From contig CACZGD010000010.1 in the NCBI GenBank assembly GCA_902780565.1, forward strand, positions 1 through 34,143: a stretch of DNA of 34,143 nucleotides, given 5' to 3'. Below, piece by piece: positions 5,645 through 26,400 of the stretch. Origin of the DNA: Oscillospiraceae bacterium (GTDB taxonomy: Bacteria > Bacillota > Clostridia > Oscillospirales > Acutalibacteraceae). The notes beneath the pieces are model-generated. The model worked only from the letters and a program-made list of their open reading frames with translations, was not told the DNA's origin and searched no databases. A program made the position numbers and the translations under genes. Position 1 is the first letter of the stretch, and each line of letters begins with the position of its first letter.

Positions 5645-6799
5645 ATGCGCGAATGGTTTGATCAGATCCCGGACCGCCGCCGCATCGGCGCGGTCAAGTG
5701 GGACGTGAAGGAAAACGAGCTGCCCATGTGGGTGGCGGATATGGACTTTGCCGCCGCGCCCGCGATCCGCGCCGCGCTGGAAAACCGGGTGGCGCACGGC
5801 GTGTTCGGCTATTCGGACCTGCCCGCCGCGTGGAACGATGCCTACGTCGCTTGGTGGCGCCGCCGCCACGGGCTGGAAATGGACCCCGACGCGCTGATTT
5901 TCACCACCGGCGTCATTCCCGCCATCTCCACCGCAGTGCGCAAGCTCACCACACCCGCCGAAAAGGCGGTCGTGCTCACGCCCGTGTATAACATTTTCTT
6001 CAACTCCATCGTCAACAACGGGCGCGTGCCCGTGGAGGTCCCGCTGCTGTACGCAAACGGGCGCTATGAGATCGATTTCCCTGCGCTCGAGGCGGCGCTC
6101 GCCGACCCGCAGGTCAGCCTGCTGATCTTCTGCAACCCGCACAACCCCGTGGGGCGCATCTGGACGCGGGCGGAGCTGGCTGCCGTGGGCGAGCTGTGCA
6201 AAAAGCACGGCGTGACCGTCATTTCGGACGAGATCCATTGCGATATCACGCTGCCAGGGACCGGCTACGTCCCCTTCGCCGCCGCGGGCGAGACCTGCGC
6301 CGCGATCAGCGTGACCTGCCTTTCCCCCGGCAAGTGCTTTAACCTTGCGGGGCTGGGCTCCGCCGCCGTCTATGTGCCGGACCCCTTTCTGCGCCATAAA
6401 ATGTGGCGCGCGCTCAACACGGACGAGGTCGCGGAGCCGAACGCCTTTGCGGTGGAGGCGACGCTCGCCGCGTTCAACGAGAGCGAGGACTGGGTCAATG
6501 AAATGAACGCCTACGTCGCCGAAAGCCGCCGGTTCGCGGAGGATTATATCCGCGAAAAGATCCCTGCGCTCGTTCCCGTGCATGGGGAGGCGACCTATCT
6601 GATGTGGATCGACTGCGCCGCCGTGACCGACGACGCCGCGGACTTCTGCCGCCGCCTGCGCGAAGAGACCGGCCTGTTCCTGAACGCCGGAAACGTCTAC
6701 GGCAAAACGGGCGAGACCTTCGTGCGCCTGAACCTCGCAACCTCCCGCAAAAACGTGGAGGACGGCATGGACCGGCTGCGCCGGTTCGTGAACGCCTGA
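5645..6799 (+). CDS. patB: PatB/MalY-type pyridoxal-phosphate C-S lyase (cystathionine beta-lyase-like)
   Basis: 384 residues, fold-type I PLP enzyme. MalY/PatB proteins cleave cystathionine or cysteine conjugates to a thiol, pyruvate and ammonia. Visible motifs are the N-terminal KWD...LPMWVADMDF, GYSD, the substrate-binding NPHNPVGR, SDEIHCD (Asp that binds the PLP ring nitrogen), and the Schiff-base lysine K230 in SPGKCFNLAGL. The C-terminal ETFVRLNLA carries the Arg that binds the substrate carboxylate. Length is normal for the family. Start ATG 5645 follows the DUF3737 stop by 2 bases, with AGGAAC as a modest ribosome site. The gene name is by family; the true substrate could be cystathionine or another beta-thioether. 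Confidence 0.9.
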   Translation: MREWFDQIPDRRRIGAVKWDVKENELPMWVADMDFAAAPAIRAALENRVAHGVFGYSDLPAAWNDAYVAWWRRRHGLEMDPDALIFTTGVIPAISTAVRKLTTPAEKAVVLTPVYNIFFNSIVNNGRVPVEVPLLYANGRYEIDFPALEAALADPQVSLLIFCNPHNPVGRIWTRAELAAVGELCKKHGVTVISDEIHCDITLPGTGYVPFAAAGETCAAISVTCLSPGKCFNLAGLGSAAVYVPDPFLRHKMWRALNTDEVAEPNAFAVEATLAAFNESEDWVNEMNAYVAESRRFAEDYIREKIPALVPVHGEATYLMWIDCAAVTDDAADFCRRLREETGLFLNAGNVYGKTGETFVRLNLATSRKNVEDGMDRLRRFVNA

Positions 6800-6830
6800 C
6801 GCGGCTGCTCAGACGCAAAGTGCATATAAA

Positions 6831-6846
6831 ATGCAGGATTCTGCAT
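6831..6846. other. Short inverted repeat upstream of the first M6 protease gene
   Basis: ATGCAG (6831-6836) and CTGCAT (6841-6846) are perfect inverted copies with a 4-base loop. The 92-base gap also holds two ATATAAAAT stretches (6824 and 6870), but neither has a matching -35 box, so the promoter of the downstream gene is not clear. Confidence 0.35.
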
Positions 6847-6891
6847 CTGCTCCTGCCGTTTCCCGGCAAATATAAAATCTGGAGACTCCCT

Positions 6892-9096
6892 ATGAAGCAA
6901 TCCCTGAAACTGTTTCTCATCGTGCTGACCCTTGCGCTGCTGGCGTTGTGCCTCGGCGTCACAGCCGGCGCGGTGCCGCCCGCACCCGGCTCCGGCTGGC
7001 AGGCGGGCCATGCCTGTCCCTCCCACGCGGGGGAGACGTATATCACCCTGTCTGAGCTGTCCGGGACGCGTCCCGGCGGCGCTATGGCGGCCCCGTCTCT
7101 GGAGCCTGCCAAACGCGATATCCCGCTTGTGATGGTCGTCATCGGGTTCCGCGACCTGCCGTATGAGCCGACCTTCAACTGGGCGGATACCATCTTTTCC
7201 GGTCCCAAGTCCCTGCGGCAGTATTATACCGATATGTCCTACGGGCAGTTCACCTTCGACCCGGCGCAGGAGACCAGCGCCTTCGGCGTGAACGGCAACC
7301 GCAACGCCGCGGACAAGGCCGGGGACGGCGTGATCCACGTCACGCTGGACCGCCTGCACGAGGACTGGACCCTCGATTACCGGAACGCGGACGAGGAGCT
7401 GCGCCGGAGCCGCTCGCTGCTGTCCGCCTTTTCCGAGGCGATCGTGAAGGCCGGGGAATATATCGACTTTCAGGCCTATGACCGCGACGGCGACGGCGTG
7501 ATCGCCCGCACCGAGCTGGCGCTCGGCTTCGTGGTCGCCGGGTACGAGGCCTCTTACGACGAGGAATGCCCCCTCGGCCGCTCGAAATATCTCTGGGCGC
7601 ACGCCTGGAACATCCCGCAGGCGTTTGAGGAGCTCGGCATCAACGATATGTCCGCGCCGGTCGTGGACGGCGTGCAGGTGGCGGATTACATCGCCATCGC
7701 CGAGCACGTCACCAAGGATACGCAGGAGCCCATCAGCGTGCTGGCGCACGAGCTCGGGCATTACCTCGGGCTGCCGGACCTGTACGATACCGAATACAAC
7801 GCCTACGGCGCCTGGGCCGGCTATGACGTCGGTCTGCTCAGCGTCATGTGCGCGGGGAGCTGGGGCGTGGACCCCGACGGCGGCCCCGACGCCTGCATCC
7901 CCTATTCCTTCGATATGTGGAGCCGCTATGTGCTCGGCTGGGTCACGCCGCGGCAGGGGACGCAGAACGGCGAATATACGCTGTCCGCGACCGACCGGAA
8001 TCAGGCGGCGCTGCTGATCCCCACCTCCAACCCCTCCGAATATTATCTGCTCGAAAACCGCAGCTTCATCGGCTGGGACGCCGGCATGGCGTCCGATTAC
8101 CCGGACAGCCGCGGCGGCGTGATCCTGTGGCATATCGACGATTCCGTGTATGACGCCTACGCCGAAATGAACGCCGTGAACAATTCCGATCACCGCCCCG
8201 CCGTGATGCCCCTGTTCCCGGAGCAGAAGACGAAGCTGTTCGGCAGGGTCGAGACCGATTACGTCGGCAATACCCGCACGGTCCTGCTCACCGAGCCCTT
8301 CCATTCCTATTCCATGTGGCAGTCCGTGGCGGCTTCGGACCTCGGCGAAAGCCTGAACCTGCCGCTTTACGGCAGCGGCATCCTTGCGAACAGCCGCGGC
8401 TCCCGCAAGAGCTCCGGGATCAGGATCACCTTTACCTCCAACGCGCGCGAGACCATGCGCCTGTGGATCGGTCCCGGCGTGCATAAGCACGATATGCGGC
8501 ACGTGCTCGAAACGCCCGCCACCTGCGTCTCCTCCGGCACCGCCGCCTATTGGGTCTGCGATAGCTGCGGCGGGATCTTTCTGGACGTGAACGGCGCGGA
8601 CGAAACGACGATGTCCGCCCTGGTGCTGCCCCAGAACGAGAATCACAGTCTGGTCCTTGAGGGCGAGCCGGTCGCCGCCACCTGCACCGAAGGCGGTTAC
8701 GAGGTTTACGTCTGTACCCTCTGCGGCGAGCATAAGCTGCTCCATGAGACCCCGCCCGCCGGGCACGTTCCGGGCGCGCCGCGGAAGGAAAACGAGACCG
8801 AAGCCGGCTATGAGCTGGTCGTTGCCTGCGCCGTGTGCGGGCAGGAGCTCTCCCGCAGGTTCGTGCTCGGCGAGGATACCGAGCCCTTCCTGCCCGGCGA
8901 CGTGGACGACGACGGCAAGGTGACTGCCGCCGACGCGCGCCTTGCCCTGCGCGCCGCCGTTTCGCTGGAGGCCTACGCGCCCGGCAGCCGCGCCTTCCTG
9001 GCCGCCGACGTGGATTTCGACGGTCTGCTTACCGCCGGCGACGCCCGCGCCATCCTGCGCGCCGCCGTGGGGCTCGAGCTGCTGAAATGGCGCTGA
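6892..9096 (+). CDS. Exported M6-family metalloprotease with Cys-rich repeats and a C-terminal dockerin
   Basis: 734 residues from ATG 6892 (GGAG at 6881-6884). A longer open frame upstream exists but lies over patB, and the signal peptide begins at this ATG. Residues 1-25 are the signal peptide. The M6 (immune inhibitor A-like) catalytic domain shows an EF-hand-like loop D197-E208 (DRDGDGVIARTE), the zinc site HELGHYLGLPD (H286, E287, H290, D296) and a SVMCAGSWG Met-turn-like stretch. Beyond ~525 come two to three modules with paired CxxC motifs. Residues ~667-731 form a type I dockerin with two Ca-binding repeats (DVDDDGKVTAADARLALR and DVDFDGLLTAGDARAILR). It should be a secreted protease tethered by a cohesin partner that is not in this window. 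It is a paralogue of the protein at 11229. Confidence 0.9.
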   Translation: MKQSLKLFLIVLTLALLALCLGVTAGAVPPAPGSGWQAGHACPSHAGETYITLSELSGTRPGGAMAAPSLEPAKRDIPLVMVVIGFRDLPYEPTFNWADTIFSGPKSLRQYYTDMSYGQFTFDPAQETSAFGVNGNRNAADKAGDGVIHVTLDRLHEDWTLDYRNADEELRRSRSLLSAFSEAIVKAGEYIDFQAYDRDGDGVIARTELALGFVVAGYEASYDEECPLGRSKYLWAHAWNIPQAFEELGINDMSAPVVDGVQVADYIAIAEHVTKDTQEPISVLAHELGHYLGLPDLYDTEYNAYGAWAGYDVGLLSVMCAGSWGVDPDGGPDACIPYSFDMWSRYVLGWVTPRQGTQNGEYTLSATDRNQAALLIPTSNPSEYYLLENRSFIGWDAGMASDYPDSRGGVILWHIDDSVYDAYAEMNAVNNSDHRPAVMPLFPEQKTKLFGRVETDYVGNTRTVLLTEPFHSYSMWQSVAASDLGESLNLPLYGSGILANSRGSRKSSGIRITFTSNARETMRLWIGPGVHKHDMRHVLETPATCVSSGTAAYWVCDSCGGIFLDVNGADETTMSALVLPQNENHSLVLEGEPVAATCTEGGYEVYVCTLCGEHKLLHETPPAGHVPGAPRKENETEAGYELVVACAVCGQELSRRFVLGEDTEPFLPGDVDDDGKVTAADARLALRAAVSLEAYAPGSRAFLAADVDFDGLLTAGDARAILRAAVGLELLKWR

Positions 9097-9116
9097 GCCG
9101 CGTTTTTTTCGCGACC

Positions 9117-9188
9117 AAAACCGCGTTTCGCGGCGCGGATAAGGGAATGACGCCCTTGTCCGCGCCGTCCTGAGACGCGGTCTTTTTT
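9117..9188 (+). terminator. Long two-part terminator hairpin before glgB
   Basis: An inner stem, GGCGCGGA (9132-9139) with TCCGCGCC (9159-9166), continues inward with AAGGG/CCCTT. An outer stem pairs ACCGCGTTTC with GAGACGCGGT. The structure ends in CTTTTTT. It separates the first protease gene from the glycogen operon. Confidence 0.85.
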
Positions 9189-9274
9189 ATGCATTTGAAC
9201 GAAAAACCGTCACTTTGCACAAAAACTGTGAAAATCCCACAAAGAGGCTTCTAACAAAATAGTCAAATTTACAC

Positions 9275-9303
9275 TTGAAAAAATATGAATAATTTGTTAA
9301 ACT
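9275..9303 (+). promoter_or_regulatory. Sigma-A-type promoter of the glycogen operon
   Basis: TTGAAA (9275-9280), 17 bases, then TAAACT (9298-9303), in an AT-rich island (9225-9305) unlike the surrounding GC-rich DNA. Transcription would start near 9310, directly before the ribosome site at 9311-9316, so the leader would be only about 15 bases. Confidence 0.68.
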
Positions 9304-9324
9304 AAAATGCGGAGGGATATCTAT

Positions 9325-11232
9325 ATGAAAAAGAAGAACACAAAAGCGTCCGAGGTACCCCTTTACCTCTTCCATCAGGGACGCAACGCCTGCGCGTACG
9401 ACTATTTCGGCGCGCATGAAAGCGAGGGCGGCGTCACCTTCCGGGTCTACGCGCCCGGCGCGAAGGAGGTCTCGGTCGTCGGCGACTTCAATGGTTGGGC
9501 CGATCCCGGCGCGGCGATGACGCGTCTGGAAGACGGCACGTGGGAGGTCGAGGTGCCGGACGTCAAGGTCTACGACGCGTATAAATACCGCCTGATCGGG
9601 GCGGACGGCGAACTGCGCATGAAGGCGGATCCCTATGCCTTCCATTCGGAAACGCGGCCCGCGAACGCCTCGAAATACTATAAGCTCGAGGGCTACGAAT
9701 GGGGCGACGGCGACTATCTCGCCGCGCTGTATGCGCGCAACGTCTACGAAAGCCCCGTCAATATCTACGAAATGCACCTCGGCTCGTGGCGCACCCACGG
9801 CGAGGACGCCCCGTACTCCTACCGCGACCTTGCCGAGAGCCTGCCGGAGTACGTTTCGGAAATGGGCTACACGCACGTGGAGTTCCTGCCCGTGATGGAG
9901 CATCCGTTCGACGGCTCGTGGGGCTATCAGGTCACGGGCTATTTCGCCGCCACGTCGCGCTACGGTACGCCGCACGACTTCATGTATCTCGTGGACCGGC
10001 TGCATCAGAAGGGGATCGGCGTGATCCTCGACTGGGTGCCCGCCCACTTCCCGAAGGACGCGCACGGTCTGTATGAGTTCGACGGCACGCGGCTCTATGA
10101 ATATACGGACGATCTCAAGTGCGAGCACGCCGACTGGGGCACGCGCATCTTCGACTACGGCAAGGGCGAGGTCGTCAGCTTCCTGACCAGCTCCGCGCAT
10201 TTCTGGTTCCGGCAGTATCACGTCGACGGCATCCGGGTGGACGCGGTCGCCAGCATGCTGTATCTCGATTACGGCAGGCAAAACGGCGGCTGGCGCCCGA
10301 ATATCTACGGCGGCCGGGAGAATCTGGAGGCGGTCGCGTTCCTGCGCACCCTGAACGAGAGCATCTTCCGCGACTTCCCGTACGCGCTGATGATCGCGGA
10401 GGAGTCCACCGCCTGGCCCATGGTCTCGCGCCCCGCGTCGGACGGCGGCCTCGGCTTCAACTTCAAGTGGAACATGGGCTGGATGAACGACATCCTGCGC
10501 TATTCGCAGCTTGACGGCCTGTCCAGAAAATATAACCACGATCTCATCACCTTCTCCCTGTTCTACGCGTTTTCCGAAAACTTCATCCTGCCCATCTCGC
10601 ACGACGAGGTGGTGCACGGCAAAAAGAGCCTGCTGGACAAAATGCCCGGCAGCTATGAGGAGAAATTCAAGGGGCTCAAGGCGTTCCTCGGCTATATGTA
10701 CGCGCATCCCGGCAAAAAGCTGCTGTTCATGGGGCAGGAGTTCGGGCAGTTCATCGAGTGGGACGAAAAGCGTCAGCTCGACTGGTTCCTGCTCGATTAC
10801 CCCGCGCATCACGACCTGCAGGCCTTTGTGAAGGCGCTCAACGCCGTCTACCGCAGTCAGTCCCCGCTGTGGGAGGTCGACTATTCGTGGGACGGCTTCC
10901 GCTGGTTGGTGCCGGACGACAACGAAAATTCCGTGATCGCCTTCGCGCGGCAGAATAAAAACGAGGAGACCGTGATCTGCCTGTGCAACTTCACGCCCGT
11001 GGAGCGCAAGGACTACCGCGTCGGCGTGGAGCGCCGCGGCGTGCTCACCGAACTGCTGCATTCCGAAGACGCCGCGTTCGGCGGGCAGCACGCGGCAAGG
11101 AAACGCATTTATACCAATAAGCTCCCGATGCACGGCAAGGACCATTCCTTCGCCGTGGATCTGCCGGGCTTCTCCTGCGTATACTATAAATACACGCCAT
11201 ACGGAACAAAAAAGGAAAAGAAAAAAACATGA
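9325..11232 (+). CDS. glgB: 1,4-alpha-glucan branching enzyme (GlgB, GH13)
   Basis: 635 residues. It introduces alpha-1,6 branches into glycogen by cutting an alpha-1,4 chain and transferring it. The start is ATG 9325 because GGAGGG lies 9 bases upstream; an in-frame ATG at 9307 has no ribosome site. Residues ~25-110 are a CBM48 domain (FRVYAPGAKEVSVVGDFNGW). The GH13 barrel shows DWVPAHFP, the nucleophile D306 (GIRVDAVASM), the acid/base E359 (MIAEES) and D427 (SHDEVVHGK). A beta-sandwich C-domain follows. Its TGA overlaps the ATG of the next gene (ATGA at 11229-11232), so the two are translationally coupled. It is the first gene of the glycogen operon. Confidence 0.96.
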   Translation: MKKKNTKASEVPLYLFHQGRNACAYDYFGAHESEGGVTFRVYAPGAKEVSVVGDFNGWADPGAAMTRLEDGTWEVEVPDVKVYDAYKYRLIGADGELRMKADPYAFHSETRPANASKYYKLEGYEWGDGDYLAALYARNVYESPVNIYEMHLGSWRTHGEDAPYSYRDLAESLPEYVSEMGYTHVEFLPVMEHPFDGSWGYQVTGYFAATSRYGTPHDFMYLVDRLHQKGIGVILDWVPAHFPKDAHGLYEFDGTRLYEYTDDLKCEHADWGTRIFDYGKGEVVSFLTSSAHFWFRQYHVDGIRVDAVASMLYLDYGRQNGGWRPNIYGGRENLEAVAFLRTLNESIFRDFPYALMIAEESTAWPMVSRPASDGGLGFNFKWNMGWMNDILRYSQLDGLSRKYNHDLITFSLFYAFSENFILPISHDEVVHGKKSLLDKMPGSYEEKFKGLKAFLGYMYAHPGKKLLFMGQEFGQFIEWDEKRQLDWFLLDYPAHHDLQAFVKALNAVYRSQSPLWEVDYSWDGFRWLVPDDNENSVIAFARQNKNEETVICLCNFTPVERKDYRVGVERRGVLTELLHSEDAAFGGQHAARKRIYTNKLPMHGKDHSFAVDLPGFSCVYYKYTPYGTKKEKKKT

Positions 11233-13670
11233 GGAAAAGCGTTTTGCGTCTCCTGCTGCCGGTCCTGACGGCGCTGCTGCTTTACGTGCTGCTTGTTGCC
11301 ACGGCTGCGGCGGTTCCGCCGGCGCCCGGCGTCGGCGGCGAAACGGGCGGCTGTCCCTCGCACCCCGGCGCCGCCGTCAGCCTGAACGCCCTTCCCGCCA
11401 AGCGCGGGGGCGGCATTCCGGTGTGCGCGGTCGACCCCGCTGCGCCGGAAAAGGAGCTGCCGCTCGCCGTGATCGTCGTGGAGTTCCCGAACGAGCCGTA
11501 CCGGGAGGACTTCGACTGGAGCGGCAGGATCTTCACCGGCGCCGACTCCCTGCGGCAGTATTATCAGGATCAGTCCTACGGGCAGTTTACCTTCGCGCCT
11601 GTGGCCGAGACCTCGGTTTATGACGGCGAAACGAACCGCAACAGGGCGGACGCCCCCAACGACGGCGTGATCCACGTTTCGGTTTCCGTCCCGCACGACG
11701 ACTGGTCTTTTCTCGCCGCGGAATTCAGCCCGGAGGATTACGCGCACACGCGTTCCCTTTCGATCGCCCTTATCGAGGCGATCGAAAAGGCGGGGGCGTA
11801 TCTGGATTTCTCCGCCTATGACGTGAACGGCGACGGGCAGATCGCCAATAACGAGCTTGCCGTCGGCTTTGTGGTCGCCGGGCTCGAGGGCTCCTTTTCC
11901 TCCGAATCGGAGCTTGCGGAAAACGGCGCCGAGCGGTATCTCTGGTCGCACGCCTGGGATCTCTCGTCCATTCTTTATCTTTACGGGTTTTCGGATCTTT
12001 CCGTCCCCGCTCCCGGCGGCGTTGCCGTGAGCGCCTATATTTCCATCGCGGAGCAGCTTCGCGCGGAGCAGCAGGAGCCGATCAGCGTGCTGGCGCATGA
12101 GCTCGGCCACTATCTCGGCCTGCCGGATCTTTACGACACCGAGCCCTTTGCGGTCGGGGATTGGAGCGGCTATGACGTCGGCGCGCTGAGCGTCATGTCC
12201 GACGGCTCGTGGGGCGTCGATCCCGAGACCGGGGCCTTCCGTCCCTATTCCTTCGACGTCTGGAGCAAGATCTTCCTCGGCTGGGTCGCCCCGATGGAAG
12301 CGGAAAACAATACGGCCTATACCCTGCGCGGGATCGGCGAACATCCCGAGGCGCTGCGCATCCGCACGTCCCGGGAGCACGAGACCTATCTCGTTGAAAA
12401 CCGCCGCTTCACCGGCTGGGACGCGGGTCTTGCCGGTACCTACGGGCCGGACGGCGGCCTGATCCTTTGGCATATCGACCGGCAGACGTACGACGACCAT
12501 GCAGGGGATAACAGCGTCAACAACGGCGACCATCACCCCGCGGTCATGCCGCTGTTTCCCGAAACGGATGAGACCGGCGCGGTCTCCTTTATCGGCGACG
12601 CGGGCAAGCCGAAGCATGGCGGCGCCGCCTTTTCCGCCGCGTCGTGGGCGGAGCTGTGCGCGCCCTCCCTCGGCGCGTCGCTTGAGCTGCCGCTTTACGG
12701 CGCCGAGGGCGAAGAGGACCTGCGGAGCGCCCGTCGGCTTTCCGGCATTCATGTCAGGTTTACGTCCGATCCCGCGGACGAAATGACGCTGGAGCTCGGC
12801 GATCCGCCTCATGAACACGACTTGACGTTCGTGCCGGAGACCGCGCCCACCTGCGGCGCTTCCGGCGTGAAGGCGCATTATCACTGCGAAATCTGCGGCC
12901 GCAATTACCTCGATGAAACCGCCGAAACGGAGGTCACGGCCGAATCGCTCGTCCTGCCGCCCGTCGGCGAGCATAGCTGGAACGAAGGCGCGGTCACGAC
13001 CGCGCCCACCTGCGTGGACGCGGGCGTCAGGACCTTTACCTGTACGGTCTGCGGTCAGACCTATACCGAAAAAATGCCTGCCGACGGCGAACACACGTGG
13101 GACGGGGGCGTTATGACGAAGGCGCCCACCTGCGGCGCCGCCGGACTGATGATCTATACATGTACGGTCTGCGGCGTAACGCGTCCGGAGGCGCTCCCCG
13201 CTGCCGGCGAACATACCTGGGACGGGGGCGTCCGTTCCCCCGCGCCGACCTGCGTGGACGCGGGCGTTATGACTTATACCTGTACCGTCTGCGGCGAAAG
13301 CTATACCGAAACGCTCGACGCGCTCGGGCATAGCTGGAGCGAATGGACCGTCGATTACCCTGCTGCCGCGACCGAACCGGGGCAGGAGAGCCGGATGTGC
13401 GCCCGCTGCCTGACGGTCGAGACCCGGGAGATCCCGCCGACGGGCGGTCCGGAAACTCTTCCCGGCGACGTGGACCTTGACGGCAGTGTGACCGCCGCCG
13501 ACGCGCGGCTCGCGCTCAGAAGGGCGGTCCTGCTCGAGACCTTCGCCGAGGATTCCCTGGAATTCCTTGCCGCCGACGTGGACGGTGACGGCGCCGTCAC
13601 CGCAGGCGACGCCAGAGCCATCCTGCGCTGCGCCGTGGGGCTCGAGGCGCTTCGCCGCAGGGAAGCCTGA
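11229..13670 (+). CDS. Second exported M6 metalloprotease with three 40-residue CxxC repeats and a dockerin, inside the glycogen operon
   Basis: 813 residues. Signal peptide ~1-28. The catalytic domain aligns by eye with the protease at 6892 throughout: an AVPPAPG start to the mature chain, EF-hand-like loop D198-E209 (DVNGDGQIANNE), zinc site HELGHYLGLPD (H290, E291, H294, D300) and SVMSDGSWG. It then carries one diverged Cys module (HEHDL..., ~550) and three near-identical 40-residue repeats from residue 580, each with APTC and TCTVCG. A type I dockerin is at ~744-808 (DVDLDGSVTAADARLALR and DVDGDGAVTAGDARAILR). The ATG overlaps the glgB stop by 4 bases, and the gene is followed by glgC after 112 bases with no clear terminator. 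The presence of a secreted protease here is unexpected. Confidence 0.9.
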   Translation: MRKSVLRLLLPVLTALLLYVLLVATAAAVPPAPGVGGETGGCPSHPGAAVSLNALPAKRGGGIPVCAVDPAAPEKELPLAVIVVEFPNEPYREDFDWSGRIFTGADSLRQYYQDQSYGQFTFAPVAETSVYDGETNRNRADAPNDGVIHVSVSVPHDDWSFLAAEFSPEDYAHTRSLSIALIEAIEKAGAYLDFSAYDVNGDGQIANNELAVGFVVAGLEGSFSSESELAENGAERYLWSHAWDLSSILYLYGFSDLSVPAPGGVAVSAYISIAEQLRAEQQEPISVLAHELGHYLGLPDLYDTEPFAVGDWSGYDVGALSVMSDGSWGVDPETGAFRPYSFDVWSKIFLGWVAPMEAENNTAYTLRGIGEHPEALRIRTSREHETYLVENRRFTGWDAGLAGTYGPDGGLILWHIDRQTYDDHAGDNSVNNGDHHPAVMPLFPETDETGAVSFIGDAGKPKHGGAAFSAASWAELCAPSLGASLELPLYGAEGEEDLRSARRLSGIHVRFTSDPADEMTLELGDPPHEHDLTFVPETAPTCGASGVKAHYHCEICGRNYLDETAETEVTAESLVLPPVGEHSWNEGAVTTAPTCVDAGVRTFTCTVCGQTYTEKMPADGEHTWDGGVMTKAPTCGAAGLMIYTCTVCGVTRPEALPAAGEHTWDGGVRSPAPTCVDAGVMTYTCTVCGESYTETLDALGHSWSEWTVDYPAAATEPGQESRMCARCLTVETREIPPTGGPETLPGDVDLDGSVTAADARLALRRAVLLETFAEDSLEFLAADVDGDGAVTAGDARAILRCAVGLEALRRREA
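12966..13325 (+). repeat. Three tandem 120-bp in-frame repeats
   Basis: Units begin at 12966, 13086 and 13206, each opening with GGCGA(A/G)CA. Each encodes 40 residues (GEHTWDGG..., APTC, TCTVCG). The second and third are the most alike at DNA level, indicating recent duplication or ongoing homogenisation. Confidence 0.88.
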
Positions 13671-13715
13671 CCCGCGCGCTGACGCTTGTGTATTATTAAA
13701 TTCCACCATAAAGCT

Positions 13716-13755
13716 GCGCCTTTCCGGCGCGCATCCACTCAGCCGCTGAAAGCGG
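13716..13755 (+). other. Two short hairpins between the protease gene and glgC
   Basis: GCGCC/GGCGC (13716-13730, TTTCC loop) and CCGCT/AGCGG (13743-13755, GAA loop). Neither is followed by a T-run, so they are unlikely to be full terminators. They may mark an mRNA processing or stability boundary before glgC. Confidence 0.4.
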
Positions 13756-13782
13756 TAATCAAACAAGAAAGGAAGAATTTCA

Positions 13783-15003
13783 ATGGCGAGAAAAACCGAA
13801 ACGCTTGCCATGCTCCTTGCCGGCGGGCAGGGAAGCAGACTCGGCATCCTGACGAAAAACATCGCGAAGCCCGCGGTGCCCTACGGCGGTAAATACCGCA
13901 TCATCGACTTTCCGCTGTCGAACTGCGTGAACTCCGGCATCTACACGGTCGGCGTGCTGACGCAGTATCAGCCGCTGGAGCTCAACGACTACATCGGCAA
14001 CGGCGCGGCGTGGGACCTGGACCGCAACGACGGCGGCGTCCACGTGCTGTCCCCCTATCAGCAGATCAAGGGGACCGAGTGGTACAAGGGCACGGCCAAC
14101 GCGATCTATCAGAACATCAACTTCATCGACCGTTACGATCCCGAATACGTGGCGGTGCTCTCCGGCGACCATATCTATAAGATGGACTACAACAAGATGC
14201 TGCAGTACCACAAGGAAAAGAACGCCGCCTGCACCATCGCCATGCTGGAGGTCCCGTGGGAGGAGGCCTCCCGCTTCGGTCTGATGTTCACGGACGAGGA
14301 CGGCGCGATCACCGCGTTTGAGGAAAAGCCCAAGAACCCGAAGTCCAACAAGGCGAGCATGGGCGTGTATATGTTCACGTGGAAGAAGCTGCGCGAGTAT
14401 CTGATCGCGGACGAGGCGGACCCGAACTCCTCCAACGACTTCGGCAAGAACGTGATTCCCGCCATGCACGGCGCGGGCGAGCGGATGTACGCCTACCGCT
14501 TCGACGGCTACTGGAAGGACGTCGGCACCATCGACAGCCTGTGGGAGGCGAATCTGGACCTGCTCAATCCCAAGGTCAACATCGACCTGACCGAAACCTC
14601 GTGGCGCATCTACTGCAAGAACGCGTCCCTGCCGCCGCACTACGTCAGCCCCGACGCGAAGGTCGAGAATTCGCTGGTCTCCGGCGGGTCCAAGATCTCC
14701 GGCAACATCGATTATTCCGTCCTGTTCTCCAACGTGACCGTGGAGGACGGCGCGAACGTGAAATATTCCATCGTCATGCCCGGCGCGACCGTCAAGGCGG
14801 GCGCCACGGTCCAGTACGCCATGGTCGCCGAAAACGCGGTCATCGAGTCCGGCGCGGTCGTCGGCGAGGATCCGCAGCAGTGCGAGAATCTGGAAAACTG
14901 GGGCGTCGCCGTCATCGGCGAGGGCGTCGTCATCGGCAAAAACGCGGTGATCAAGGGCAAGAACATGATCGCCGAAAACGTGGGAGAGGGGGAAGTCAAA
15001 TGA
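13783..15003 (+). CDS. glgC: Glucose-1-phosphate adenylyltransferase catalytic subunit (GlgC)
   Basis: 406 residues. It forms ADP-glucose from glucose-1-phosphate and ATP, the committed step of glycogen synthesis. The N-terminal nucleotidyltransferase motif [20 protein letters not shown] is intact, followed by [20 protein letters not shown], the metal-binding SGDHIYKMD, and the glucose-phosphate-binding [11 protein letters not shown] left-handed beta-helix with hexapeptide-like repeats occupies the C-terminal third. Length is typical. AAAGGAAG precedes ATG 13783. Its stop overlaps the glgD start (ATGA, 15000-15003), consistent with the GlgC-GlgD hetero-oligomer known in Firmicutes. Confidence 0.96.
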
Positions 15004-16118
15004 GAGGCAACAACGTACTCGGTCTGATTTTTGCGAACGTCCACGACGAGGAGGTCCCGGAGCTGACCGGCATCCGCTCCATGGCGTCCGTCCCCTTCGG
15101 CGGCGGCTACCGTCTGGTGGATTTCGCGCTGTCGAACCTTGTGAACGCAGGCGTCACCAAGGTGGGCGTTCTGACCAACAATAACTATCAGTCCCTGATG
15201 GACCATATCGGGTCCGGCAAGCCGTGGGACCTTGCCAGAAAGAACGACGGTCTTTATTTCCTGCCGCCGTTCAACGCCACTGCCGTGCGCAACTATAACG
15301 CGGGCGAGGTCGGCGCGCTGCACAACATCCTCAACTTCCTCGAGCGCAGCGAGCAGGAATACGTTTTCATGACCTCCTGCTCCTACGTGGCGAATATCGA
15401 TCTCGAGGCGGTCTTCTCGGCGCACGAGCTCAGCGGCGCGGATATCACCATGGTCTCGCACGTGGGCGTCGCCCCGGCTTTTGAAAACCAGCCGATCGTG
15501 GAAAGCAAATTCGGCGATCTGATCACCTCCCTGCGCCTCGGCGAGCCCACCGGCGGCGAGGAGGAATATCTGCTCACGAACTGCCTGCTGAAGAAGAGCC
15601 TGGTCGAGCGTCTGGTGCGCGAGGCGTTCTCCCGCGGGGAATACTCCCTGTTCAAGGACGTGCTGCGCCGCGCGGTCGGCAGAGTCAAGATCCACACCTA
15701 TGAGCACAAGGGGTTTGTGGCGAACGTGAATTCGCTGGCCGCCTATTTCAAGGGCAACTTCGACCTGCTGCGCCGCGAGAATTACGAAAGCCTGTTCCGC
15801 ACGGACCGCCCCGTCATGACGAAGGTGTATGAGGATATGCCGGCGGTTTACGGCATCGGCTCCAACGCGCGCGCGTCTCTGGTCGCCGACGGCTGCATCA
15901 TCGACGGCACGGTCGAAAACTGCATCCTGTTCCGCGGCTGCCGCGTCGAAAAGGGCGCCGAGGTGAAGAATTCCATCCTCATGCCCATGGCGTTCGTGGG
16001 CGAGGGTGCGAAGCTCAATTACGTGCTGGCGGATAAGTCCGTCTCCGTGCGCTCCGGCAAAACGCTGTCCGGCGCGGAAACCTATCCCGTTTATATCGGC
16101 AAGGGGATCCAGATCTAA
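15000..16118 (+). CDS. glgD: GlgD, regulatory/non-catalytic partner of GlgC
   Basis: 372 residues from ATG 15000, which overlaps the glgC stop. An upstream extension of this frame lies over glgC and is rejected. It is a GlgC paralogue with the same fold, but the GGxGxRL nucleotide loop is replaced by [18 protein letters not shown] and the SGDH metal site by TSCSYV. It is therefore expected to be catalytically dead and to modulate GlgC, as known for Firmicutes GlgD. Retained landmarks are [16 protein letters not shown] and the C-terminal beta-helix ([20 protein letters not shown]). The stop codon TAA is directly joined to the AGGAGG of glgA. Confidence 0.95.
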
Positions 16119-16129
16119 GGAGGAATACA

Positions 16130-17554
16130 ATGAAAGTTTTATACGCAGTCAGCGAAGCGAAGCCCTTTATTGCCAGCGGCGGACTCGGCGACGTAGCGGG
16201 CAGCCTGCCCGCGGCGCTCCGGCGGCGGCTCATCGGCTGCCGCGTGGTGCTGCCTCTGTATGAGGGCATCGACCAGAAATACAAGGACGACATGAGGTTC
16301 ATCACCCACATCACCGTGCCGGTCTCGTGGCGGCGGCAGTATTGCGGCATCTTCGAGTACAAGCGCGACGGTGTGATCTATTACTTCCTCGATAACCAGT
16401 ATTACTTCAAGCGTCAGGGCATCTACGGGCATTATGACGACGCGGAGCGCTTCGCGTTCTTCTCCCGCGCCGTGCTGGAGATCCTGCCCCACATCGACTT
16501 CAAGCCCGACATCATCAACTGCAACGACTGGCAGACCTCCCTTGTGCCGGTGTATTACTCGCTGTATTACGCCCAGCGGGAGGGCTATGAGAACATCAAG
16601 ACCGTGCTGACCATCCATAACATCCAGTATCAGGGGCAGTATGGGCACGAGGTCCTCGGCGACGTGGTCGGCCTTTCCGAAGAGAACGCCAGCCTGATGG
16701 AAAACGACGGCTGCATCAACTTCATGAAGGGCGGCATCGAGTGCGCCAACGCCGTCACCACCGTCTCCCCGACCTACGCGCAGGAGATTTTGGACCCGTG
16801 GTACGCCTACGGCCTCGATTCCATCCTGAAGGCACGCCAGTGGAAGCTGCACGGCATCCTGAACGGCATCGATACCGTCGCCAACGACCCGGCGACGGAC
16901 CCCGCCCTGCCCGCGCATTACAGCGTGGACGACATGGCGGGCAAGGCCGTGTGCAAGGAGGCGCTGCAGAAGGAGATGGGCCTGCCCGTGAAGCCGGAAA
17001 CGCCCGTCATCGGCATCGTCTCGCGTCTGGTCGGGCATAAGGGCTTCGATCTTGTCCGTCACGTGCTCGAGGAGCTTGTCACCACCGAGGATGTGCAGGT
17101 CGTGGTCGTCGGCTCCGGCGAATGGCAGTACGAGACCTTCTTCTCCGAAATGGCGTCGAAGTATCCCGACAAGGTCGCGGTCAAGCTCGGCTTCATCCCG
17201 GCGCTCGCCTCCCGCATCTACGGCGGCAGCGATATCTTCCTCATGCCCAGTAAGTCTGAGCCCTGCGGGCTGTCGCAGATGTTCGCCCTGCGCTACGGCA
17301 GCGTGCCCGTGGTGCGCGCCACCGGCGGCCTGAAGGATACGGTGCAGGATTCCGGCCTGAACGAGGGCAACGGCTTCGTGTTCGAGGACTATAACGCGCA
17401 CGATATGCTGCACGCCATCCGCCGCGCTGTGCACGGCTATGCGGACCATGAGGGCTGGGCGATCCTCAGAAAGCGCGCCATGGAGTGCGACAACTCCTGG
17501 GGCAAGAGCGCGAACGAATACATCCGGCTGTATAAGCAGCTCATCAAGGAATAA
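16130..17554 (+). CDS. glgA: Glycogen synthase (GlgA, GT5)
   Basis: 474 residues. It transfers glucose from ADP-glucose to the growing alpha-1,4 chain. GT-B fold landmarks are the N-terminal SEAKPFIASGGLGDVAGSLP, NDWQTSLVPVYY, LTIHNIQYQGQ, a GIDT turn, the IGIVSRLVGHKGFDL hinge, and the C-terminal SEPCGLSQMFALRYGSVPVV plus RATGGLKDTV nucleotide site. The usual KTGGL near position 15 is ASGGL here: the Lys that contacts ADP-glucose in E. coli GlgA is Ala. This may be a clade variant. AGGAGG overlaps the end of glgD. The next gene starts 14 bases later. Confidence 0.95.
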   Translation: MKVLYAVSEAKPFIASGGLGDVAGSLPAALRRRLIGCRVVLPLYEGIDQKYKDDMRFITHITVPVSWRRQYCGIFEYKRDGVIYYFLDNQYYFKRQGIYGHYDDAERFAFFSRAVLEILPHIDFKPDIINCNDWQTSLVPVYYSLYYAQREGYENIKTVLTIHNIQYQGQYGHEVLGDVVGLSEENASLMENDGCINFMKGGIECANAVTTVSPTYAQEILDPWYAYGLDSILKARQWKLHGILNGIDTVANDPATDPALPAHYSVDDMAGKAVCKEALQKEMGLPVKPETPVIGIVSRLVGHKGFDLVRHVLEELVTTEDVQVVVVGSGEWQYETFFSEMASKYPDKVAVKLGFIPALASRIYGGSDIFLMPSKSEPCGLSQMFALRYGSVPVVRATGGLKDTVQDSGLNEGNGFVFEDYNAHDMLHAIRRAVHGYADHEGWAILRKRAMECDNSWGKSANEYIRLYKQLIKE

Positions 17555-17568
17555 ACACGGGGGCGCAT

Positions 17569-18423
17569 ATGGCGAAATTTGTGTTTTCCGCGTTTGCGGA
17601 TGAGGCGGGCAAAACGCTCGCCGAACAGATCGAGGCGCTGCGCGCCAACGGCATGACGCTCCTCGAGCCCCGCGGGCTGGACGAGGGCAACATTTCGGAT
17701 TATACCCCCGCCATGGCGCGGGAGCTGCGCGCGAGACTTGACGACGCCGGGATCGGGATCTCCGCCATCGGCTCCGGCTACGGCAAGATCCGCATCACGG
17801 ACGATTTCGAGCCGCATTTCGAGAAATTCCGGCAGACCGTGGAGGTCGCGAACGTCCTCGGCGCGAAGCGCATCCGCATGTTCTCGTTCTATATGCCGGC
17901 AGGGGAGGACCCCGCCGTTTATAAGGACGAGGTCTTCAGGCGGCTCGAACGCTTTGCGGACTACGCGCGCGAAAACGGCGTGTGGTGCTGCCACGAAAAC
18001 GAAAAGGGGATCTACGGCGACGTCACCGAGCGCTGCCTCGAGATCCTGTCCGCGTTCCGGGGACGCATCCTCGGCGTGTTCGACCCCGCGAACTTCATCC
18101 AGTGCGGCGTAAAGCCGCTGGAGGCGTGGGAGGTCCTTGCGCCCTATATCGACTATATGCACGTCAAGGACGCCCGCTTTGCGGACGGCGGCGTGGTGCC
18201 GCCGGGCAAGGGCGACGGAAACGTCGCCGAGATCCTGCGCCGTTTCGGCGAAAAGGACGGCGAAAAGATCCTCACGCTGGAGCCGCACCTCAAGGTCTTC
18301 AGCGGGCTTGACGCGCTCGAGACCGTCAGCGGCAGCGTGTTCTCCGTCACGGAGGAATATGCCTATCCCTCTAACCGCGCGGCCTTTGACGCGGCCGCCG
18401 CGGCGCTCCGGGAGATCCTGTAA
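17569..18423 (+). CDS. Sugar phosphate isomerase/epimerase-like TIM-barrel protein
   Basis: 284 residues of the xylose-isomerase-like TIM-barrel superfamily (AP-endonuclease 2 fold). Probable metal ligands are visible at strand ends: E143 (CHENEKG), D172 (GVFDPANF), H198 (DYMHVKD) and E238 (LTLEPHL). Members isomerise, epimerise or dehydrate sugars and inositols; the substrate here is unknown. GGGGGCG before ATG 17569 is a weak ribosome site, but the gene starts only 14 bases after glgA and is very probably its operon partner. The stop codon lies within a 20-base tandem repeat that re-copies the last five codons. Confidence 0.85.
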   Translation: MAKFVFSAFADEAGKTLAEQIEALRANGMTLLEPRGLDEGNISDYTPAMARELRARLDDAGIGISAIGSGYGKIRITDDFEPHFEKFRQTVEVANVLGAKRIRMFSFYMPAGEDPAVYKDEVFRRLERFADYARENGVWCCHENEKGIYGDVTERCLEILSAFRGRILGVFDPANFIQCGVKPLEAWEVLAPYIDYMHVKDARFADGGVVPPGKGDGNVAEILRRFGEKDGEKILTLEPHLKVFSGLDALETVSGSVFSVTEEYAYPSNRAAFDAAAAALREIL

Positions 18424-18465
18424 TACTCCGGGGGATCCTATAATACTCCGGGAGATCCTATAAGA
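18406..18465 (+). repeat. Three tandem 20-base repeats across a gene's stop codon
   Basis: Units at 18406-18425, 18426-18445 and 18446-18465. They differ at only a few positions; the core is CTCCGGG(A/G)GATCCT(G/A)TAA. The first unit contains the last codons (Leu-Arg-Glu-Ile-Leu-stop) of the TIM-barrel gene. Units 2 and 3 are non-coding copies. The pattern fits replication slippage. Confidence 0.9.
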
Positions 18466-18469
18466 GCAG

Positions 18470-18502
18470 AAACCGGTCTTTCGTCTTGACAAGGCCGGTT
18501 TT
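18470..18502 (+). terminator. Terminator of the glycogen operon, overlapping the next promoter
   Basis: AAACCGGTCTT (18470-18480) pairs with AAGGCCGGTTT (18491-18501) as an 11-bp stem with one G-T pair and a 10-base loop, then ends in TTTT. The loop and right arm contain the TTGACA -35 box (18486-18491) of the downstream promoter. Confidence 0.72.
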
Positions 18503-23366: not shown

Positions 23367-23441
23367 CCGCCGTTCTGCGTATGCGCGTATGATTTCGGCG
23401 CGGCGGCGCACACTATGGGTATCAATAAAACGGAGGCGCGT

Positions 23442-26400
23442 ATGAAACAGGCGACGCGGGAACTCAACGGGGCGAAGCGCGCCCTTGCACATTATCTGAA
23501 AAGCGTCGGCGAGGCGCAGGGCGACGCGGACGTCTGGCTTGTCGAAAACGCCGACATGCTGCGCGCGGCTCTGACCGCCGCGCTTCGTTGGGTGCGCCGC
23601 GGCGCGCGCTTTCCGTTCGCCTGCGCAAAGGCGTTTGCCGAAACGTTCACGTCGCTGCTCTCATCCGGCGGCGACGTGGGGGCGGCGGAGCTGTCTTCGC
23701 TCCTGGCGCGCGCCTTTGCCGGGACGCCCCTGACCCTCCGGCAGCTCGAAGCGCTGCCGGTCATGCTGTTTGCCGCGTTGTCCCTCACAGCCGTCGCCGC
23801 CCGGGGGACGGACCGCGCCGCACACGCCGTGCGGGCGTTTTATCTGCTCCGGCGGGCGGATCTGACCGCGTGGGAAGCGCTGCTCTGCCCCGGAGAACGG
23901 CTTCTGGAGGCGGACCCCGCCGGGGTCTATCCCCGCATGGACCGGGCCACAAAGCTCTGGTACCGCCGCGCCTTCGCCAAAGCGGCGAAAAAGGCGGGCG
24001 TTACGGAGGAAGCGTATCTCGCGCCGCTGCTTGCCGCCGCGAAGCAGACCGGCGGGCATATCGGCGAAACGCTGCGCGTTCCCACCCATAAGGTCCTCGG
24101 CACGCTTCTGCTGCTTTTGCAGGCGGGCGCGGCGCGGGCGGGAAGCCTGCTGCTGGGGTTTTACGCCGTCCGTGTCACCGGCGTGTTCGGCGGGTGGACC
24201 TATTACGCCGCCGGGGCGCTGGCGGCAGCTTTGCTGTTCTTCCCGTGCTATACGCTGCTGCAGCCGCTGATCTATAAGCTCGGCGCGTGGCTTTTTCCCC
24301 CGCGCGTGCTGCCGTCGCTGGAGCCCGACCGGGCGGATTTCTCGCCGCCGCCGTCGCTGATCGTCGTCTCCGCCATTCTGCCCGCCGCGTCGAAAATGGA
24401 CGCGTGGGAGCAGGCCCTCAGCGATCTGTATTTCGGCGCGGGGGTCCCCGATACGGGCGTGCTGCTCCTGCTGGATAAAAAGAGCGCCGAAGCGCCGTTT
24501 TTGCCGTCGGACGAGGCGGACCTTGCCGCCCTGCGGCGGCTGGTGCGGCGGCTGAACGCCGTGGGCGGGCGCTTCGCCTTTGCCGTGCGCCCGCGTGTGA
24601 AAAACGAATCGGAAACGGACTACTGCGGCTATGAGCGCAAGCGCGGCGCGCTGACGGCGCTCTCGGTCCTGCTGACGGCGGGGGACGCGTCCGCGTTCGA
24701 GACGGTCGGGGGCGACACGGCGCTGCTGCAAAACCGGCGCTATCTGCTGGCGCTGGATCAGGATACCGCCGCGCCGCCGGGGGCGCTGGCCTCTCTGCTT
24801 GCCGCCGCCATGCATCCCCTGAACCGGGGCTATGGCTGCTTCGCGCCGCGCTGCGAGCCCGCGCTCCCCGCCGGGACCACGCTGTTCCGGCGGCTGTTCG
24901 CGGGCGGCGGGCTGACGGCCTACGCCCCCGCGATCTCGGAATTCTATACGGACGCGTTCGGGGAGGGGATCTTCTGCGGCAAGGGGCTGATCGACGTCGC
25001 CCGCTACCGGGAGACCTGCGCCGACGCGTTCGAGCCGGGGCGCGTGCTGAGTCACGACGTGCCGGAGGGGGCTTTGCTGCGCACGGCCTTTGTCTCCCGC
25101 GTCCGCCTCGGAGAGGGCTTCCCGTGCTCGCCCGCTTCCTATCTCAGCCGGGCGCACCGCTGGATGCGCGGGGACGCGCAGAACCTGCGCCTGATCGTGC
25201 GGCAGCCGAAAAAGGGGAGACTCACCGCCCTGCACCGCTTCTGGCTCACGGATAACCTCCGGCGGGCGCTCACGCCGCCCTGCGCCCTCCTGCTGATCCT
25301 GATGTCGGCGGCGTCTCCGGTGCATACCGCGCTGCCGCTGCTGCTGATCGGGGTGTTCTCCACCGTTGGCGGCAGCCTCGTCTCCGCGGCGGCGCTCCTG
25401 CGGCGCGAGGGGCTGTCCGTCCCGTTTTCGCTGCCGCTCTCATCCCCGGCGCGGGAATGCCTGCGCGCGCTCGCGGAGCTTGCTCTGCTCCCGGCGTCGG
25501 CGTATAACGCGCTGGACGCCGTCGCGCGCGGGGTGTGGCGGCAGCTCGTCCGCCGCCGGACGCTGGAATGGACCACCGCAGCCGCGGCGGAGCACGGCGG
25601 CAAAAAACCGGCGCGGCTCGTCCTTCCGGCGCTTATTGCGGGCGCGATCCTGCTATCCGGCGCGGCGGCGCAGCAGGTCGTGGGACTGTTCTTCCTGCTG
25701 GCGATCCCCTTCGCGCTGTCGAACGGGATCACGCTGCCGGAGCGCCGCGGGAAGCTCCGCTTCCGGGACCGGGAGCAGCTTGCGGACTGGGCGGCGGCGA
25801 CCTGGCGGTATTACGAGACCTACGTGGGGGCGGAGGACCACTTTCTGCCGCCGGATAACGCGCAGGAGCTGCCGCGCCGCATGACGGCGCACCGGACCTC
25901 GCCCACGAATATCGGGCTGTATCTCACAAGCGTGCTGGCCGCGGCGGACCTCGGGCTCATCGGGGAGCGGGAGCTTGAAACGCGGCTGGGCGCGGCGTTC
26001 GACGCGCTGGAATCCCTGCCGCTGTGGCGCGGTCTGCCGTATAACTGGTACGATACGCGCACCCTCCGCCCGCTGTCGCCCGCCTTTGTGTCCACGGTGG
26101 ACTGCGGCAACCTTCTGGTCTGCCTCACGGCGCTGACCGAGGGGCTGCGGGAGCGGCGGCTGACCTATCTTGCCGCGCGGGCGGCGCGCCTTATGAAGGA
26201 CGCGGATCTTTCCGCGCTGTATGATCCGGTCCGTCGGCTGTTTTACGTCGGCTACGACGCGTCCGCGGGGCGTTTCACCGACGCGGCGTATGAATGCTGC
26301 CTGTCCGAAACGCTGCTCACTTCCGTCTACGCCGTTGCGAAACGTCAGGTCCCGCCGTCTCATTTCGCCGCGCTCACGCGGCCCGTGCGCAAAAAGGGGC

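Follow-up and report, generated by a model that had tools for sequence, protein, structure and literature searches.

Clustered glycogen operons of the form glgBCDA(P) are known in Firmicutes from passages of two papers (PMC10395257, PMC11423593), among them the glgBCDAP operons of lactobacilli (PMC10395257). Dockerin-linked proteases are also already known: the cited part of a study on Ruminococcus flavefaciens FD-1, a relative among the gut Clostridia, describes relatively many dockerin-bearing putative peptidases, with one metalloprotease in its table (PMC2930009). We analyzed a stretch of 34,143 nucleotides from an Oscillospiraceae bacterium (assembly GCA_902780565.1, contig CACZGD010000010.1; hereafter the window, meaning the whole stretch) in which the order on the plus strand is glgB, an M6-family metalloprotease gene that we call M6B, glgC, glgD and glgA (9325-17554). 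The window keeps the glgB-C-D-A order described for the lactobacilli; unlike the Firmicutes operons of those passages, it has a protease gene between glgB and glgC. An earlier report of a protein with both an M6 and a dockerin domain was not found in the open-licence literature searched, and the consulted part of a study on anaerobic methanotrophic (ANME) archaea describes M6-like and dockerin domains on different proteins (PMC9012536).

The reading that we favor, at roughly two chances in three, is that a lineage-specific pair of M6 genes lies beside the glycogen genes, that one copy has been displaced into the operon, and that its co-expression with them is a by-product. In this lineage the glycogen operon would have as its neighbor a metalloprotease cassette with exchangeable C-terminal tails, of which M6A would be the copy upstream of glgB, closed off by a terminator-like hairpin, while M6B would have reached the glgB-glgC gap by local duplication or movement. 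There it would probably be transcribed on the glycogen mRNA together with glgCDA, and the dockerin of its product would bind a cohesin-bearing protein. Our inferences from the evidence below concern the secretion and tethering of the protein, the co-transcription of its gene, and the order in which duplication and movement took place.

The genome to which the window belongs, as contig C10, measures 3.29 Mb in 240 contigs, with a completeness estimate of 97% and a contamination estimate of 3.4%. An earlier note on this DNA, made from the letters alone, had proposed the same gene order on one strand, and both the coordinates and the NCBIfam equivalog cut-offs agree with it. The branching enzyme gene glgB (9325-11232) matched NF008967 at 877 bits against a cut-off of 577; glgC (ADP-glucose pyrophosphorylase, 13783-15003) matched NF003670 at 596 against 470; glgD (15000-16118) matched TIGR02092 at 339 against 237; and glgA (glycogen synthase, 16130-17554) matched NF001898 at 645 against 603. 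M6B occupies 11229-13670. Its ATGA overlap with glgB, on which the note had relied, is present at 11229-11232, and glgC and glgD overlap in the same way at 15000-15003.

M6B is an intact gene, recognized by profile and motif matches, with a signal-like N-terminus, a zinc motif, Cys repeats and a dockerin. Both catalytic profiles were over their cut-offs (PF05547, 43.6 versus 22 bits; TIGR03296, 130.5 versus 110.8 bits), as was the dockerin profile PF00404, of the two-repeat calcium-loop type, at 31.7 versus 22.9 bits (13461-13616). The zinc motif HELGHYLGLPD is followed by SVMSDGSWG, and the protein also has a DVNGDG loop. The CxxC repeat units are encoded by tandem repeats at 12999-13316, with a 120-base period in 2.7 copies, and this region matches a solved immunoglobulin A (IgA) protease chain, 9qa6. 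The zinc site, Cys repeats and dockerin seen by the earlier note are thus all borne out. In its HExxHxxGxxD zinc motif, SxMSxGSW segment and DxNxDG calcium loop, M6B aligns with immune inhibitor A (InhA; PDB 4yu5/4yu6, the alignment being to 4yu5); unlike the InhA-type enzymes, the window proteins carry C-terminal CxxC repeats and a dockerin. For the InhA-like VEG model PF20774, M6A alone gave a score, 17 bits, which is below the cut-off of 27.6. M6B is predicted to be a secreted enzyme that would cleave proteins with a zinc site. An AlphaFold2 model of M6B, for which M6A was the sole other row of the alignment, had a mean predicted local distance difference test (pLDDT) score of 31, a confidence too low for the model to be used.

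The earlier note overlooked a paralog, M6A, which lies outside the glycogen operon directly upstream of glgB (6892-9096, plus strand). It matched PF05547 at 45.4 bits, TIGR03296 at 132 bits and PF00404 at 29.0 bits, has a signal-like N-terminus, Cys repeats and a C-terminal dockerin, and is 51% identical to M6B. Since M6A stands directly upstream and M6B directly downstream, glgB is flanked by two paralogous proteases, and at E 0.001 these two were the only Peptidase_M6 matches in the genome. The zinc motif is conserved in all four M6 copies at glycogen loci, namely the window pair and a pair in the nearest relative, G014; by eye, all four also begin with a hydrophobic N-terminus followed by TAxAVPP.

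We compared the locus within the genus, using 26 genomes: that of the window, 22 others with glgB and glgC on one contig, and three (G021, G023 and G025) that were not scorable. In all 22 others the spacing between glgB and glgC was 2-40 bases between match ends, against 2553 in the window, and none had an M6 gene between the two. We also examined named loci, taken as the best 80 of 591 GlgC relatives, the closest of which (80-66% identity) came from Clostridia, Candidatus Fimenecus, Candidatus Avimonas, Anaeromassilibacillus and Acutalibacter; tblastn gave no M6 match in any of the 80. By these GlgC relatives the genome would belong to the Oscillospirales, probably to the Acutalibacteraceae. 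The earlier note had named restriction of the protease to this one assembly as an outcome that would count against its idea, and this is nearly what was found, softened by the two M6 genes beside the operon in G014. Because relatives lack M6 at that spot, the insert looks like a local gene move with no conserved partnership.

Interruption of glgB and glgC by unrelated genes is rare yet precedented, as a few named and family loci show. Among the named loci, 63 of 80 have glgB within 39-1324 bases of glgC and 17 have no glgB in the stretch examined; when the five widest gaps were read, 3 of the 63 held a gene. Those of L141 and L142 are alike and esterase-like by eye, and that of L182 encodes a small protein with a signal-like start. 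The L182 protein (9131-9934 of its locus, from the Oscillospiraceae metagenome-assembled genome isolate Nt197P1bin1) has dockerin-like repeats by eye and no Pfam match at E 0.001, and was not counted as a dockerin protein. In a sample of 150 family genomes, 100 including that of the window have the pair together (read by eye), and 3 of the other 99 were interrupted when the ten widest gaps were read, the rest being under 400 bases and too small for a gene of the size of M6B. The interrupters, labeled by eye, were a glycosyltransferase-like gene in G172, an esterase-like gene in G091 and two membrane-protein genes in G136; the other seven wide gaps showed frames of low complexity that continue glgB, or else no clear gene. 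G091 and L142 are probably one genome, shared by the family and named-loci counts.

M6 genes occur elsewhere in the family, with matches in 18 of 398 genomes, that of the window included. Apart from G014, none of 30 other M6 places (10 in the genus, 20 in the family) adjoins glycogen genes in the stretches examined, some of which are contigs of only 4-8 kb, so that neighbors could be missed. Searching named genomes with M6B gave seven pattern matches and no relative, in a search that may leave out records of, or near, the genome of the window. The N-terminal halves of M6 proteins in the genus and family are mostly about 40-54% identical, and three family proteins reach just 26-32%. At a contig edge of the genus genome G007 (L108, 1-555), some 1.4 kb upstream of its glgB, we observed an open frame that encodes Cys repeats and a dockerin and may represent the final part of a further protease or surface protein in this position.

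In the nearest relative, G014 (GlgC 97% and GlgB 81% identical), the glgB-glgC gap is free of M6 genes, and two related ones stand in tandem upstream of glgB. The flanking DNA of G014 is collinear with that of the window, save that M6 lies at 6794-9194 and at 11202-13765 in the window and only upstream of glgB in G014. The G014 contig, C59 (144,220 bases), appears to be an inverted palindrome, with matches in mirror-image pairs whose coordinates sum to 144,220 + 1, and this is probably an assembly artefact; for this reason the four M6 matches listed in G014 were counted as two genes. M6A, M6B and the G014 pair form one clade with support of 99/97, or 97/98 when two distant rows were added. Identity within the pair is 71% in G014, as against 51% in the window.

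We then considered which signals surround the inserted gene. Downstream of M6A, a strong terminator-like hairpin and T run lies at 9120-9189 (plus strand), the hairpin being followed by CTTTTTTA; for 9090-9200 the folding energy was -55.6 kcal/mol (z -5.5), and 0 of 200 shuffles were equally stable. Before glgB there is a promoter-like site, TTGAAA-17-TAAACT (9275-9303, plus strand), which matches at 9 of 12 positions and has a TG before the second hexamer, against a shuffle mean of 0.1 such sites. TTGAAA-17-TAAA(C/A)T scored best in 13 of the 22 genus loci, the window included; the other nine had none or a different site. Upstream of it, at 9249-9267 on the plus strand, is a 19-base box, TTCTAACAAAATAGTCAAA, which stood out by its conservation across genus glgB loci. 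It was present in 22 of 22 such loci (window included; the partial G011 locus is left out of this count), 18 times exactly, three times with one mismatch and once with two. At up to two mismatches the box had a single site in the whole genome and was found in 1 of the 80 named loci (L126), with 0 in the control. From this pattern it looks like a regulator site for the glycogen genes of the genus.

No terminator-like site was found between M6B and glgC in 13640-13790, and folding of 13655-13790 gave z = -0.01. There is a weak promoter-like site before glgC, CTGACC-18-TATTAT (13667-13696, plus strand; 9 of 12 positions, shuffle mean 0.1 in a 151-base stretch). The earlier statement that no clear promoter or terminator separates the protease from glgC thus holds for the terminator and is qualified by this weak promoter-like site. 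With a terminator-like hairpin and a promoter-like site after M6A and no terminator found after M6B, M6A is insulated from the glycogen genes, whereas M6B, by these scans, is not. Read-through from M6B into glgCDA is therefore plausible, and because M6B stands behind the conserved glgB promoter region with no terminator found after it, it is probably carried on the glycogen mRNA. As a comparison for 13671-13783 we took four intergenic stretches, from G014 and from the window itself. The best match, 11 bases long, was to the stretch behind the second M6 gene of G014 (6 of 500 shuffles as good), followed by a weaker match to the M6A-glgB stretch of the window (21 of 500), and 55 of 500 for each of the other two. 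These matches were too weak to claim a remnant of a decayed terminator.

Of 27 M6 frames compared at their C-terminal ends, five had a dockerin according to a motif search, including M6A, M6B and one of the G014 copies, and 17 had, by eye, a CxxC hydrophobic tail. Since M6 frames end in either, the C-terminal part that serves for attachment seems to be exchangeable. In the genome of the window there are 63 dockerin matches, 59 of them over the cut-off, while the dockerin control gave matches in 2 of 14 well-known genomes. A DAR-type repeat as in M6B was counted by eye in 26 of 28 dockerins read (30 submitted). The search of the genome for cohesin domains that the earlier note had proposed returned eight matches at E up to 1, of which six were over the cut-off, four clearly (37-50 versus 24.1 bits) and two at the borderline; of 14 well-known genomes used as a cohesin control, two gave matches, one of them over the cut-off. 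Each cohesin open frame had one PF00963 match in this 240-contig genome, and in one frame, of 1127 residues, inspection by eye suggests a possible second cohesin-like stretch. By eye, the cohesin proteins include a lipoprotein-like protein and two neighboring cohesin-plus-dockerin proteins on contig C14. As the genome has dockerins as well as clear cohesin matches, tethering of M6B is possible, in a putative surface or secreted complex formed by dockerin-cohesin binding. R. flavefaciens FD-1 resembles this genome in its dockerin-bearing putative peptidases and differs, in the part of the study cited above, in having a full cellulosome, as against one cohesin match per open frame here; glycogen operons do not come up in that part (PMC2930009). 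The cited portion of the ANME study cautions that the presence of dockerin and cohesin domains alone leaves their role unclear (PMC9012536).

An insert known from one assembly raises the question of misassembly, in which glgB, M6B and glgC would have been wrongly joined. The fragmentation of the assembly and its contamination estimate would suit such an error, but in a search for direct repeats no exact one in the window was longer than 20 bases, and none of that length linked M6A with M6B, which makes misassembly unlikely. The junctions also fall exactly at gene ends, with the ATGA overlap, and the dockerin of M6B belongs to the common class of its own genome. G+C content at third codon positions (GC3) was 0.80 in M6B, near the 0.82-0.89 of the other 14 genes measured. 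We hold an artefact to be very improbable. GC3 so slightly under that of the other genes gave no sign of a recent foreign origin of M6B either, and we set that idea aside. It is unlikely, too, that M6B rides on the glgB mRNA while glgCDA has acquired a promoter of its own in 13667-13696, leaving the protease uncoupled from most of the pathway. The promoter-like site there, rarely matched in shuffles, and a gap of 112 bases before glgC, where the other genus genomes have no more than 40 between match ends, fit such a split; however, the -35-like hexamer matches poorly, at 4 of 6 positions, there is no TG extension, and no terminator-like site separates M6B from glgC.

The earlier note had offered two explanations, an accident of insertion or a way of co-expressing the protease with carbon storage. 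Our comparisons (0/22 and 0/80) favor the accident; co-expression as such is plausible, and its selection or function was not supported by the tests. In a selected arrangement the protease would have been recruited so that extracellular protein digestion accompanies carbon storage during nitrogen-limited, carbon-rich growth, amino acids being gained while glucose goes to glycogen. The intact state of M6B, its place behind the promoter-like site and the 19-base box, an ATGA overlap that fits translational coupling, the G007 frame and the two M6 genes of G014 would all suit this, but the arrangement is not conserved in the genus or the named loci, the 30 other M6 places do not adjoin glycogen genes, and the neighboring M6A is insulated from glgB by its hairpin. 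We regard selected co-regulation as unlikely. Unlikely as well, in our view, is the bolder proposal that a surface-tethered protease has come under the conserved glycogen-storage promoter and its box, with a single regulator then tuning both carbon storage and extracellular protein digestion in this lineage, and with M6 or dockerin genes repeatedly drawn to the glgB flank in the window, in G014 and possibly in G007.

Displacement of one copy of a neighboring pair, with co-expression as a by-product, remains the reading that we prefer, and several observations weigh against it. The placements tested inside the four-protein clade were not told apart: either copy in the window may be the older, and either may be the closer one to G014. 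Sister placement of M6A and M6B was not rejected (approximately unbiased test, p-AU 0.257), and the two may or may not stem from a recent duplication. The M6 proteins of the window and G014 are only 44-54% identical, compared with 76-97% for the nearest flanking proteins, a divergence indicating that fast evolution or replacement is also involved. The weak promoter-like site before glgC could uncouple the operon halves. The insert is known from a single assembly of the species and may not be fixed in it. The divergence is not special to the window: G009 and G022 show the same gap, with GlgC 98% identical and the best M6 pair only 59%, so the M6 protein appears generally fast-evolving or often replaced. 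As judged from gene order, the link of M6B to glycogen is positional and lineage-specific rather than a functional partnership conserved among relatives.

On this reading the locus is mainly an example of a neighboring cassette slipping into a conserved operon, and the more useful by-products are the conserved glycogen promoter box and the exchange of dockerins and hydrophobic tails on M6 proteases. If the coupling were true, nutrient storage and surface proteolysis would be joined through one promoter in uncultured gut-type Clostridia, which would offer a regulatory clue for the abundant dockerin proteins of this genome.

Downstream of glgA lies a gene for a xylose-isomerase-like TIM barrel (17569-18423, plus strand; PF01261). 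Among the loci of 11 relatives, it comes next after glgA in nine, and the other two loci break off within glgA or at its end; it is likely the last gene of the glycogen unit. A promoter-like site, TTGACA-17-TATGAT, stands downstream of it at 18486. A 20-base tandem repeat in 2.9 copies (18406-18463) overlaps the end of the TIM-barrel gene and places TATAAT-like units just before that site. Farther along the window, at 23415-28847, a protein of 1810 residues has matches to a GH94 supersandwich domain, a glucoamylase-like domain and DUF3131, and resembles the cyclic beta-glucan synthases.

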